In this document: positions 5,901 to 8,519 of the stretch, piece by piece
Layout of the letters: each line of letters begins with the position of its first letter
Position numbering within the stretch: the first letter of the stretch is position 1
Assembly (NCBI RefSeq): GCF_000813965.1
Contig: NZ_JWLI01000005.1
Span: 62,001 to 126,000, forward strand
Origin: Leisingera sp. ANG-M7
Lineage (GTDB): Bacteria > Pseudomonadota > Alphaproteobacteria > Rhodobacterales > Rhodobacteraceae
Length of the DNA: 64,000 nucleotides
Direction of reading: 5' to 3'
The notes under the pieces: model-generated
The model's database searches: none
Seen by the model: the letters and a program-made list of their open reading frames with translations, nothing else
Told to the model about the DNA's origin: nothing
Position numbers and translations under genes: made by a program

Positions 5901-6075
5901 CAGCAAGGTGCCGCCTTTCGGGGCGGAGAATTGGGAAGCTGGTGAAACTCCGGCACTGCCCCCGCAACGGTGACCCCGGGCAAGGCATGGCAAAAACCAC
6001 TGAAGCAGCGGCTTCGGGAAGGTGCCAGGCCCGCCGCCAAAAGGCCCCGGGACAGTCCGGAAACCAGCCTTGCCA
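5901..6075 (+). ncRNA. Cobalamin (B12) riboswitch upstream of gbcAB
   Basis: The order of conserved blocks is that of the cobalamin riboswitch: AAGGTGCC (5905-5912), GGGAA and GGTGAAACTCCGG (5933-5952), the core CACTGCCCCCGCAACGGTGA, then CCACTG (5998-6003), CGGGAAGGTGCCAGGC (6015-6030), and the B12-box stretch AGTCCGGAAACCAGCC (6054-6069). The closing P1 helix is GCAAGG (5903-5908) with CCTTGC (6068-6073). The element ends about 120 bases before the gbcA start. B12 riboswitches normally shut down expression when adenosylcobalamin is plentiful, so gbcAB should be expressed under B12 limitation. Confidence 0.93.
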
Positions 6076-6130
6076 TGAAAACGTCAACCGCGGGCGGCGG
6101 CGGGGCGGTTGCAGGCGCGTGGCCTGCGAT

Positions 6131-6187
6131 CTCTCCCTCCATGCCCGCAGCCAAGCCAACCTGCCGCGGGGATGCGGCAAAGGAGAG
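6131..6187 (+). promoter_or_regulatory. Possible Shine-Dalgarno-sequestering helix of gbcA
   Basis: CTCTCC at 6131-6136 is the exact complement of GGAGAG at 6182-6187, which is the ribosome site of gbcA (ATG at 6194). Between them a second hairpin, TGCCGC-GGGGAT-GCGGCA (6161-6178), brings the two together. This is the kind of expression platform a translational riboswitch uses; no Rho-independent terminator is seen between aptamer and gene. Confidence 0.45.
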
Positions 6188-6193
6188 AAGCAA

Positions 6194-7429
6194 ATGCTTC
6201 ACGACAGCGAAATTCTGGCCAAACTGGTGGCCCGTCAGAAAAACTATTCCCTGGAGCGGGCGTTTTATACCGATCCGGGCGTGCTGGATCTGGACATGCG
6301 CCAGATCTTCTACCGCGAGTGGCTGTTTGCCATTCCCGCCTGCGAGATCCCGAAGGCGGGCAACTTCGTGACCCATCAGGTCGGCGCCTACAACGTCATC
6401 ATCGTGCGCGGCACCGATGGCGAAGTGCGTGCTTTCCACAACGCTTGCCGTCACCGCGGTTCGGTCGTGTGCAAGGCGAAGAAGGGCAATGCGCCCAAGC
6501 TGGTCTGCCCTTACCACCAGTGGACCTATGAGCTGGACGGCTCGCTCTTGTGGGCGCGCGACATGGGGCCGGATTTCGATGCCTCCAAACACGGGCTGAA
6601 GCCGGTGCATTGCCGTGATCTGGCTGGGCTGATCTACATCTGCCTGGCCGATGAGGCGCCGGATTTCGATGCCTTCGCAGCCGTGGCGCGGCCTTATCTG
6701 GAGCCGCATGATCTGGGCAACGCCAAGGTGGCCTTTGAAAGCTCGATCATCGAGAACGGCAACTGGAAGCTGGTCTGGGAGAACAACCGCGAGTGCTATC
6801 ACTGCGGCGGCAACCACCCGTCGCTGTGCCGGACCTTCCCGGAAGACCCGTCCGTAACCGGCGTCGAGGGCGGCGAGACCCCGCCGCACCTGCAGAAGCA
6901 TTTCGACCGGATCGAAGCGGCAGGCGTGCCGGCGCAGTTCCAGATTGATGCGCGTGGCCAGTACCGGGTGGCGCGGATGCCACTGAACGAGGGCGCCGAG
7001 AGCTATACCATGGACGGCAAGGCAGCTGTCGCCAAGAAGCTGGGCCGGGTGCCGTTTGCCGATGCGGGCACGCTGTTGAAGTTCCATTACCCGACCACCT
7101 GGAACCACTTCCTGCCGGATCATTCCATCGTGTTCCGGGTGACCCCGATCAGCCCGACCGAGACCGAAGTCACCACCAAATGGCTGGTGCACAAGGACGC
7201 GGTTGAAGGCCAGGATTATGACCTAAAGCGGCTGACCGAGGTCTGGGTTGCCACCAACGACGAGGACCGCATCGTGGTCGAGGACAATCAGCGCGGCATC
7301 AACTCACCCGCTTATGAGCCCGGTCCCTATTCGGAAGTGCAGGAAAGCGGCGTTATCCAGTTCTCCAACTGGTACGCCGAGCATCTGACCCGCGCGCTGA
7401 CCGGCCGCCACCTGATCGCGGCGGAGTAA
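6194..7429 (+). CDS. gbcA: Glycine betaine monooxygenase, Rieske oxygenase subunit
   Basis: 411 residues from ATG 6194 (GGAGAG site upstream; the frame is open far upstream through the riboswitch but that is not coding). The Rieske [2Fe-2S] motif is C85-x-H87 and C105-x2-H108 ([17 protein letters not shown]); the mononuclear iron site includes H203 and H208 in [13 protein letters not shown]. The C-terminal region ([33 protein letters not shown]) matches Pseudomonas GbcA closely, as I remember it. GbcA with GbcB converts glycine betaine to dimethylglycine and formaldehyde using O2 and NAD(P)H. Related stachydrine or carnitine oxygenases are the alternatives. It is under the B12 riboswitch and followed after 4 bp by gbcB. 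Confidence 0.87.
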
Positions 7430-7433
7430 GCGC

Positions 7434-8519
7434 ATGGGACTGCAGGCCAATTTCGAGACGCTGGATGAAACTCTGGCGTGGAAGGACGACGAGATGCTGG
7501 AATGCGTCTCTGTCGTGCCGGAAGCGCCGAACACCGCCACCTTCAGCTTCCGCGCACCTTCGGGCGCGTGGTTCAAGTACCAGCCGGGCCAGTTCCTGAC
7601 GCTGGAGCTGCCGGTGCCGGGCGGCACCGTCTGGCGCACCTACACGATCAGCTCGTCGCCTTCGCGGCCCTTGTCGATCTCGGTGACGGTGAAGGCGCAG
7701 GCCGACAGCATCGGTACCCGCTGGATGCTGGACAATCTGAAACCGGGCATGTTCCTCAGGGCCTCTGGCCCGGCAGGCGTGTTCACCCTGCCGAAACGGC
7801 CGAACGGCAAGTTCCTGTTCATCTCCGCAGGTTCCGGCATCACGCCGAGCCTGTCGATGACGCAGTATCTGTTTGATCGCGGCCAGTCGCCGGACGTTTG
7901 TTTCATTAACTGCGCCAAGCGGCCCAGCGAGATCATCGCGCGGCGCCAGCTGGAGGGCATGGCGGCGCGGGTGCCGGGGATCAAGCTGCATTTCGTGGTG
8001 GAAGAGGACGACCCCTATCAGGTTTGGACCGGCTACCGCGGGCAGCTGAACCAGATCATGCTGGGTCTGATTGCCGGCGATTACCTAGAGCGCGAGATCT
8101 ACTGCTGCGGGCCGGAGCCGTTCATGCAGGCGGTGCGCGACATGCTGAACGGCCTCGGCTTTGACATGGAGAACTACAACCAGGAAAGCTTTGGCGCGCC
8201 GGTCGAGACCGAGGCAGATGCGCCGGAGCTGGACGATGTGGTTCCCGAGGAAACCGCCGCCGCAGAGATCAGCTTTGCCGCGTCGGGCGTCACTGCCACT
8301 TGCACCGAAACCGATACAGTGCTGGCAGTTGCCAAGGCGTCGGGCCTCAACATCCCGTCGGGCTGCACCTTCGGCATCTGCGGCACCTGCAAGGTCAAGA
8401 AGACCGCGGGCGATGTGCATATGGTCCACAACGGCGGCATCTCAGAGGAAGACGTGGAGGCCGGGTACATCCTGGCCTGCTGCTCCAACCCGATTGGCCG
8501 GGTCGAAGTGGACATCTGA
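7434..8519 (+). CDS. gbcB: Glycine betaine monooxygenase, ferredoxin reductase subunit
   Basis: 361 residues. The N-terminal part is a ferredoxin-NADP reductase fold: flavin motif RTYTISSSPSR near residue 67, nucleotide-binding ISAGSGITPSLSM near 130, and YCCGPEPFM near 225. The C-terminal part is a plant-type [2Fe-2S] ferredoxin with SGCTFGICGTCKVKK and a final Cys in YILACCSNP. This passes electrons from NAD(P)H through flavin and [2Fe-2S] to the GbcA Rieske centre. The start is 4 bp after the gbcA stop, so it shares the riboswitch-controlled transcript. A hairpin follows at 8526. Confidence 0.87.
   Translation: MGLQANFETLDETLAWKDDEMLECVSVVPEAPNTATFSFRAPSGAWFKYQPGQFLTLELPVPGGTVWRTYTISSSPSRPLSISVTVKAQADSIGTRWMLDNLKPGMFLRASGPAGVFTLPKRPNGKFLFISAGSGITPSLSMTQYLFDRGQSPDVCFINCAKRPSEIIARRQLEGMAARVPGIKLHFVVEEDDPYQVWTGYRGQLNQIMLGLIAGDYLEREIYCCGPEPFMQAVRDMLNGLGFDMENYNQESFGAPVETEADAPELDDVVPEETAAAEISFAASGVTATCTETDTVLAVAKASGLNIPSGCTFGICGTCKVKKTAGDVHMVHNGGISEEDVEAGYILACCSNPIGRVEVDI

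Follow-up and report, generated by a model that had tools for sequence, protein, structure and literature searches.

A cobalamin riboswitch ahead of a betaine-type Rieske demethylase gene pair in Leisingera sp. ANG-M7 and other alphaproteobacteria

In a stretch of 64,000 nucleotides from Leisingera sp. ANG-M7 (contig NZ_JWLI01000005.1, hereafter the window), a cobalamin (vitamin B12) riboswitch lies directly upstream of two genes coding for a Rieske-type oxygenase and its reductase, which are called gbcA and gbcB here. We consider it probable that the cobalamin riboswitch acts as an ordinary OFF switch on a gene pair for an oxygen-dependent and corrinoid-free demethylase of the betaine type, in a way that is B12-sparing. 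The evidence comes from the aptamer and the gene pair themselves, the conservation of their arrangement, the common origin of the riboswitches, the coexistence and synteny with mtg and nrd genes, and a hairpin which recurs beside the ribosome-binding site; from these comparisons we infer the metabolic purpose of the control. A first-pass annotation of this DNA, which had placed a cobalamin-free betaine demethylation under a B12 riboswitch as a replacement for the corrinoid-dependent route, was right in outline. It needs two corrections, namely the label (a betaine-type enzyme of group Vb) and the role (B12-sparing, not full replacement). The features of the region are as follows.

5889..6086, + strand: cobalamin riboswitch aptamer (RF00174), from the cmscan score of 108.1 bits and its retention in relatives
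5958..5968, + strand: L5-type loop GCCCCCGCAAC, from the sequence; complementary to G-rich loops downstream
6086..6110, + strand: H1 region (AACCGC...GCGGTT), an L13-like candidate right after the P1 helix, from CGCGG counts, alignment and fold
6162..6179, + strand: hairpin H2 (TGCCGC-GGGGAT-GCGGCA), directly before the Shine-Dalgarno region, from recurrence across loci and the predicted fold
6180..6189, + strand: Shine-Dalgarno region AAGGAGAGAA, from the sequence
6194..7429, + strand: putative Rieske oxygenase of group Vb, a GbcA/Stc2-like quaternary-amine demethylase of 411 amino acids, from Pfam, NCBIfam, PDB and motifs
7434..8519, + strand: putative reductase, GbcB/Stc4-like, of 361 amino acids, with flavin adenine dinucleotide (FAD), nicotinamide adenine dinucleotide (NAD) and 2Fe-2S domains, from Pfam; the NCBIfam GbcB score is below cut-off

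The riboswitch aptamer

The Rfam scan (cmscan) covered all 64,000 bases of the window, and its sole match at the gathering threshold was the cobalamin riboswitch RF00174 (108.1 bits against a threshold of 31.5 bits; E=4.1e-26), which is full-length (model positions 1-189 of 189). The first-pass annotation had recognised the conserved blocks of the B12 riboswitch and its P1 helix, and regarded an absent score to the covariance model as fatal to its reading; the full-length match bears it out. The start that it gave, 5901, falls inside the riboswitch but 12 bases after the aptamer start at 5889. All columns invariant across 23 aligned aptamers are retained by the window copy, and 108 nt separate the aptamer end from the oxygenase gene. 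The L5-type loop GCCCCCGCAAC was found at 28 of the 28 riboswitch loci listed, and by analogy with known B12 riboswitches (PMC5282855, available part) it would have a kissing role.

The Leisingera genome contains five RF00174 matches in 4.58 Mb. The four other copies precede a cob cluster, in which CobN, CobG, CobH and CobJ exceed their model cut-offs, a gene for CbtA, which likewise exceeds its cut-off, a BtuC/FecC-type ABC transporter, for which no model was over the cut-off, and a small open reading frame (ORF). The highest-scoring B12 riboswitch of the genome (134 bits) lies upstream of a small ORF (L006 4129-4629, + strand), and no Pfam match to this ORF was found in the pieces given.

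Conservation and descent of the riboswitch-gbcA arrangement

Of the 248 family genomes, 51 contain homologues of gbcA (53 matches in all). The riboswitch scan covered the 50 homologues of more than 50% identity, three family matches at 44-46% being left out, and RF00174 was located directly upstream and on the same strand in 20 of these 50. This conservation of the pairing across genomes speaks against a chance association. In the f10 clade, whose proteins are approximately 70% identical to those of Sinorhizobium sp. C101 and Shinella, the riboswitch is present in six of nine rows. Named loci, the best 80 of at least 594 confirmed, were searched with R1, our own covariance model built from 23 gbcA aptamer sequences, which may miss others. 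Twenty-three of the 80 possess the riboswitch, some of them being the same as, or near, the genomes from which R1 was trained. They belong to Leisingera (2), Ruegeria (4), Phaeobacter (2), Shimia (2), Sulfitobacter (2) and Roseibium (2), with one each in Loktanella, Marinibacterium, Pelagimonas, Pseudophaeobacter, Marivivens and Pacificoceanicola, and further ones in Gemmobacter caeruleus, Rhodobacter ruber and a Rhodobacteraceae metagenome-assembled genome (MAG). Sinorhizobium sp. C101 and Shinella sp. PSBB067 (plasmid records) also carry a riboswitch before gbcA.

The spacing between the aptamer and the start codon ranges from 55 to 153 nt and is 100-123 nt in 22 of 28 cases. Along the protein tree, presence and absence of the riboswitch switches at least 12 times. 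A tree of the riboswitches, in which L064, L087, L091, L092 and most named loci are among the gbcA copies not represented, places 28 gbcA aptamers in a single clade (100/100), apart from 17 further B12 riboswitches taken from these and related genomes; otherwise this tree is poorly resolved, with long branches and a bootstrap which has not settled. Since the 28 aptamers form one clade despite the 12 or more changes, the simplest reading of the trees would be one old origin followed by repeated loss.

Decayed copies were also observed. At the sister-species locus L022 a remnant at 1216-1393 (+ strand) scores 64 bits with R1, falls under the Rfam threshold and has many of its conserved sites broken; this species offers a natural loss-of-control case. 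Genome G135 retains a 15-bit riboswitch trace. Ahead of gbcA in Primorskyibacter flagellatus there is a partial riboswitch match of 31 bits (L144 3711-3803, + strand), perhaps another decaying copy.

The oxygenase and the reductase

The oxygenase gene starts with ATG at 6194, is preceded by a AAGGAGAG Shine-Dalgarno sequence from 6180, and stops at 7429. Its product contains Ring_hydroxyl_A and Rieske domains, the latter with the motif C85-x-H...C-x2-H108, and the reductase contains FAD_binding_6, NAD_binding_1 and Fer2 domains. Rieske, ring-hydroxylase, FAD, NAD and 2Fe-2S domains are the only ones detected in the pair by Pfam, and the enzyme appears to use no corrinoid. The marks of group Vb, which comprises the enzymes that oxidatively demethylate glycine betaine and stachydrine, as set out in the available part of PMC7948474, are all present in the segment ENN198RE200C201YHC204, with an Asn replacing Tyr203 of CntA, the Cys pair and the bridging Glu. 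The next gene downstream, rpiB, starts with ATG at 8660 after a gap of 140 nt, and we take it as a separate unit.

The earlier match to glycine betaine monooxygenase stands in so far as this is a Rieske oxygenase/reductase pair of group Vb, whose best NCBIfam matches are GbcA and GbcB; neither reaches the threshold, however, and the pair is closer to an stc locus. The GbcA cut-off is exceeded in 13 of 299 genomes of the phylum (688-845 bits), all of other classes, and to these proteins the oxygenase is 49-51% identical. It is 98% identical to proteins of Leisingera sp. JC1 and L. aquaemixtae, and 69% identical to a homologue in Sinorhizobium meliloti which adjoins a gene annotated stc4. Among solved structures 3n0q comes nearest (749 bits), followed by 3vca and 4qup (668 bits), and we take the last two to be the stachydrine demethylase Stc2. 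A protein tree was constructed from 80 proteins, after removal of L069 (broken frame) and L084, L089 and L096 (duplicates). Sixty-three rows form one clade, separate from the 13 rows that exceed the GbcA cut-off; wherever a class or name is available the former are alphaproteobacterial, and the latter belong to other classes. The S. meliloti row (L103) is nested inside the 63-row clade, which the window oxygenase shares while sitting outside the group that bears a LysR gene. Because of the group Vb motif, the scores below cut-off and the clade which includes S. meliloti, the predicted enzyme can safely be labelled a betaine-type demethylase, GbcAB being the probable label; glycine betaine is likely to be its main substrate.

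In its domains, group Vb motif and oxygenase-reductase order, the pair is like GbcAB of Pseudomonas and Chromohalobacter, from which it differs in its identity and scores, as given above, and in that a GbdR-like gene occurs at none of the 23 named riboswitch loci. With Stc2/Stc4 of S. meliloti it has in common the 69% identity, the clade and the two-gene layout, whereas a riboswitch is missing at the S. meliloti locus, which carries a divergent LysR gene. A switch-less relative is found on plasmid pTAV3 of Paracoccus versutus, where genes for an FAD-dependent oxidoreductase, folD, etfAB, a GlxA-family regulator, gbcAB, fdhA and a BCCT transporter make up what looks like an oxidative betaine pathway. 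This relative is 73% identical to the riboswitch-linked enzyme of the f10 clade.

Candidate genes of the B12-dependent betaine route in the same genome

According to the available part of a 2025 paper (PMC12478193), cobalamin-binding MtgBCD constitutes a major marine route of glycine betaine demethylation; its ocean survey did not include gbcAB homologues because of their low abundance. Glycine betaine demethylation and methionine synthesis in Ruegeria pomeroyi require MtgC, a cobalamin-binding protein, and MtgD, with an MttB-type MtgB as the presumed methyl donor module, and mtgC mutants of R. pomeroyi DSS-3 fail to grow on glycine betaine even when methionine is supplied (same source). The Leisingera genome contains one split MtgC-like protein, whose top NCBIfam match is the MtgC model (198.6 of 370 bits), an MtgD-like gene beside a MetF2-like gene, and ten MttB-type genes (G000 C1, C4, C8, C12, C13, C18, C34, C45, C55 and C56). 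A genome search for MtgB-type methyltransferases, proposed in the first-pass annotation, thereby has candidates, although none of the nine scanned passes a curated model. Besides these ten genes there are fourteen FAD/GcvT-type matches which resemble dimethylglycine dehydrogenase (DMGDH), together suggesting that many methylated substrates are used.

Neither MetE nor core-MetE (PF01717, 0 matches) nor a second B12-binding_2 domain, the mark of MetH, was found in the Leisingera genome, which seems unable to make methionine without B12. Since MetE and MetH were not found, the earlier claim that the oxygenase route replaces the corrinoid one is too strong, and a B12-sparing role fits better.

The presence of MtgC in 19 of 20 riboswitch-gbcA genomes, versus 24 of 28 without the switch, is uninformative because MtgC occurs in 227 of the 248 family genomes. 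Synteny is more telling where a connection with B12-dependent betaine metabolism is concerned. Riboswitch-gbcAB stands head-to-head with mtgC-DUF1638-(small PF13769 gene)-metF2-mtgD in Roseibium aquae and R. hamelinense, and a gene for formate-tetrahydrofolate ligase lies on its other side in both. The metF2 product is recognised as methylenetetrahydrofolate reductase from its match to PDB 7xg9 (2.5e-44), Pfam having given nothing at 1e-5. R1, trained on gbcA aptamers and liable to overlook other riboswitches, gave no match before mtgC at these two loci. The riboswitch-gbcAB unit of Ruegeria sp. Ofav3-42 has an MttB gene divergent from it, with 88% identity to a member of the Leisingera set, and that of Pacificoceanicola has an FAD/GcvT-type oxidoreductase, DMGDH-like by architecture, beside it. 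The corrinoid betaine demethylase/methionine synthase MtgBCDE (PMC12478193, available part) has the same presumed substrate as the window enzyme; MtgC-like, MtgD-like and MttB-type proteins are encoded in the Leisingera genome, and mtgC and mtgD are head-to-head with riboswitch-gbcAB in Roseibium; it differs in transferring the methyl group via cobalamin and in consisting of unrelated proteins. The earlier idea of a B12-sensing RNA ahead of a B12-free, oxygen-dependent demethylase, in a cell that also encodes parts of a corrinoid route, is well supported by these comparisons of synteny, riboswitch descent and MttB/MtgC content.

Relation to known B12-independent isozymes

B12 riboswitches control genes for B12-independent isozymes, such as metE and those of class I ribonucleotide reductase. 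The arrangement in the window is alike in that RF00174 stands before an enzyme which would do the job of a B12 enzyme without B12, and nrd genes with such a riboswitch occur beside riboswitch-gbcAB. Unlike metE and nrd, it concerns a catabolic, O2-dependent Rieske demethylase which is not homologous to its B12-dependent counterpart and which should yield formaldehyde, not methyl-tetrahydrofolate.

The flanks of 46 riboswitch loci were inspected, comprising the window, L101, L102, L105-L124 and the 23 named loci, with flank lengths that vary and some species represented twice. Genes of the nrd group were present in the fetched flanks at seven of these 46, versus two of 59 others, both from Salipiger bermudensis; in the named set alone the figures are 4/23 and 2/57. 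Models over the cut-off were NrdE class Ib (L142), NrdF class Ib and NrdI (L111), NrdI (L117) and NrdH (L183), and by these the neighbours are assigned to the B12-free ribonucleotide reductase NrdHIEF. Nrd genes with a riboswitch of their own occur in L111, L117, L121, L142, L175 and L183, and four of the seven nrd-bearing riboswitch-gbcA loci have one; none was seen before nrd in L133, L134 and L139, where the operon start was not recovered. At L121 (206-2292, - strand) nrdH and nrdI stand behind a riboswitch, together with a gene that resembles B12-independent methionine synthases in type (PRK06520, 414 bits, over the cut-off of 313). The available part of PMC12478193 voices the suspicion that core-MetE is made only under cobalamin limitation, and the L121 gene is a candidate for that core-MetE.

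A search of the PubMed Central literature, most subscription papers and all preprints lying outside it, gave no report in which a betaine or Rieske demethylase is connected with a cobalamin riboswitch, in agreement with the first-pass impression that the link was undescribed. In the available text of PMC12478193 the word riboswitch occurs once only, in a reference on a glycine riboswitch. The control is of a familiar kind, and gbcAB is a new type of target for it.

Leader hairpins and the mode of switching

The motif CGCGG of the H1 region occurs within 40 nt past the aptamer end at 25 of 28 riboswitch loci; in the window copy H1 has a long loop and its pairing is absent from the predicted fold. 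A GGG-loop hairpin before the Shine-Dalgarno, represented in the window by H2, occurs at 14 of the 28 riboswitch loci (all 14 among the 22 that are not f10 rows), where shuffling predicts 0.23, and at 2 of 35 switch-less loci, one being the sister species. The control is not blind, the pattern having been defined after the sequences were seen, and it covers 35 of 52 switch-less loci, 13 rows over the GbcA cut-off and the four most distant rows being omitted. The stems vary around the same type of loop (GCCGC/GCGGC, GTCGC/GCGAC, CCGTGC/GCACGG, GCCCATGC/GCATGGGC and CCCGGC/GCCGGG). In the predicted fold of the window leader, H2 gains three pairs (6160-6162 with 6181-6183) and thereby enters the Shine-Dalgarno. 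G-rich stretches in both H1 (6086-6110) and H2 (6162-6179) could pair with L5 (5958-5968), and a competition of H1 and H2 for L5 may be the switch.

Helices which mask the Shine-Dalgarno directly were also considered. In four of six f10 rows (L086, L087, L088 and L091) a GTCCT...AGGAC helix covers it, and the window copy has a 7-nt complement, UCUCUCC (shuffle p 0.015, mononucleotide shuffles). Perfect masking matches reach p<0.05 in 1 of 28 riboswitch loci and 3 of 52 controls. Since the window copy alone of the 28 does so, such a match was rejected as the general mechanism.

A kissing loop between L5 and L13 which masks the Shine-Dalgarno is known in another cobalamin riboswitch (PMC5282855, available part). 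Because of this precedent, of the hairpin by the Shine-Dalgarno and of the lack of a + strand terminator, translational control via a kissing loop is likely here, and the polarity is presumably OFF.

Proposed mechanism and alternative explanations

When cobalamin is plentiful, the aptamer would bind it and make a loop-loop contact with the hairpin near the ribosome-binding site, holding translation down, and betaine methyl groups would pass along the corrinoid route from an MttB-type MtgB to MtgC, MtgD and tetrahydrofolate. As cobalamin falls, the oxygenase and reductase would be made and would release one methyl group as formaldehyde with no need of cobalamin, so that the vitamin is saved for the methionine synthesis that takes place on the shared MtgC. 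This B12-sparing reading is, on comparative grounds, well supported. Should it be true, a B12-free and a B12-dependent betaine route would serve one cell with B12 choosing between them, a catabolic O2-dependent enzyme would join the B12-independent alternatives, and the supply of B12 would have a testable link to the turnover of a major marine osmolyte. A broader proposal, which we rate as evenly balanced, is that an old alphaproteobacterial riboswitch with a single ancestry lets cobalamin decide the fate of osmolyte methyl groups, either to tetrahydrofolate, a B12-dependent branch in which the methyl is kept for methionine and one-carbon (C1) metabolism, or to formaldehyde by the O2-dependent, B12-free branch. 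Marine roseobacters would then couple B12 scarcity directly to betaine breakdown.

Several observations weigh against the B12-sparing reading. Both enzymes fall below their equivalog cut-offs (oxygenase, GbcA NF058607, 519.9 vs 670 bits; reductase, GbcB NF058606, 366.1 vs 500 bits), and Stc2 is the nearest characterised relative of the oxygenase. Nine of the ten MttB-type proteins were scanned against NCBIfam without any passing a curated model, and no betaine-specific member is named; MtgC, moreover, is found almost throughout the family. From the aptamer to the gene the + strand carries no intrinsic terminator, perfect Shine-Dalgarno-masking matches are above chance at only one riboswitch locus, and the sister species has a decayed aptamer before a protein which is 93% identical. 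In genome G118 (L121) one riboswitch precedes gbcAB and then, on that strand, a two-part metH whose larger part scores 1561 bits against a cut-off of 1497; in G191 (L064) the first part of metH follows gbcAB on the same strand at the contig edge; and in G092 (L111) a riboswitch is followed by an ORF of about 100 amino acids and then metH. Since MetH is B12-dependent, these loci do not fit the simple reading.

The metH loci raise the question of whether the regulon serves a general C1/methionine balance and not B12-free alternatives. Such a balance would explain gbcAB and metH on one strand under one riboswitch in L121 and, to the contig end, in L064, as well as the riboswitch before the ORF and metH in L111, but three genomes only are concerned and nrd genes are commoner as neighbours; we consider it improbable. 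A different substrate under the same mechanism is a possible, though not a probable, alternative. The enzyme could act on proline betaine (stachydrine) or another quaternary amine, its counterpart being another of the ten MttB proteins, as suggested by the 69% identity to the S. meliloti homologue by the stc4-annotated gene, by the PDB relatives 3vca and 4qup (Stc2), by the place of L103 in the same clade, by the missed GbcA cut-off and by the number of MttB genes itself. Switch-less members of the clade, however, are located beside SoxB-like genes (7/57) or GbdR-like genes (13/57, 11 of them over 300 bits), of which one SoxB neighbour passes its model and one GbdR-like neighbour does not; a clade member lies in the betaine-type cluster of Paracoccus, and the LysR gene of the S. 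meliloti type is found at 0 of 23 riboswitch loci.

It is decidedly improbable that the switch serves B12 synthesis, with betaine being converted at low B12 to glycine and C1 units for 5-aminolevulinate and S-adenosylmethionine, and so to the corrin ring. Betaine feeding lifts the B12 yield of industrial strains (available parts of PMC8123684 and PMC5282855) and the genome has cob genes, yet the Mtg route should supply the same products, and nrd and mtg genes are what was seen next to riboswitch-gbcAB. The adjoining B12-related genes are limited to a cbiM cluster (L134) and a BtuCDF-type ABC transporter (L121), each with its own riboswitch. Least of all do we expect the aptamer to be a relic or to lack a regulatory effect on gbcA. 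The decayed copy of the sister species, the trace in G135 and the want of a general Shine-Dalgarno-masking helix would agree with this; against it, the window copy retains the columns invariant in 23 aligned aptamers, and a hairpin with varying stems recurs beside the Shine-Dalgarno.

Regulators at loci with and without the switch

A divergent LysR gene of the S. meliloti stc type is present at 26 of 57 switch-less named loci versus 0 of 23 with the switch, and a GbdR-like gene scoring over 300 bits at 11 of 57 versus 0 of 23. Either type of regulator (LysR or GbdR-like) was found at 30 of 57 loci without and 0 of 23 with the switch (Fisher 1.8e-6). The pattern tracks clades, with three to five independent pairs, so that a sign test is unable to reach significance. 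We therefore describe it and do not claim that the riboswitch has repeatedly replaced LysR or GbdR regulators.

Other neighbouring genes

Neighbouring genes were called by a codon-GC rule which still misses some. Apart from the oxygenase and reductase, no cluster was common to more than seven of 23 loci (gbcA being recognised in 21), and the most widely shared, at seven loci, consists of ABC ATPases. The ORF of approximately 100 amino acids (MLLERTI...) occurs directly behind a B12 riboswitch at L111 (11371-11673, + strand) and L064 (3782-4084, - strand); Pfam gave no match for either copy and NCBIfam none for that of L111. In a Pelagimonas MAG (L134) a B12 riboswitch at 3350-3530 (- strand), divergent from riboswitch-gbcAB, lies ahead of a CbiM cobalt transporter (Pfam); nrdE and nrdF are situated on the opposite side.

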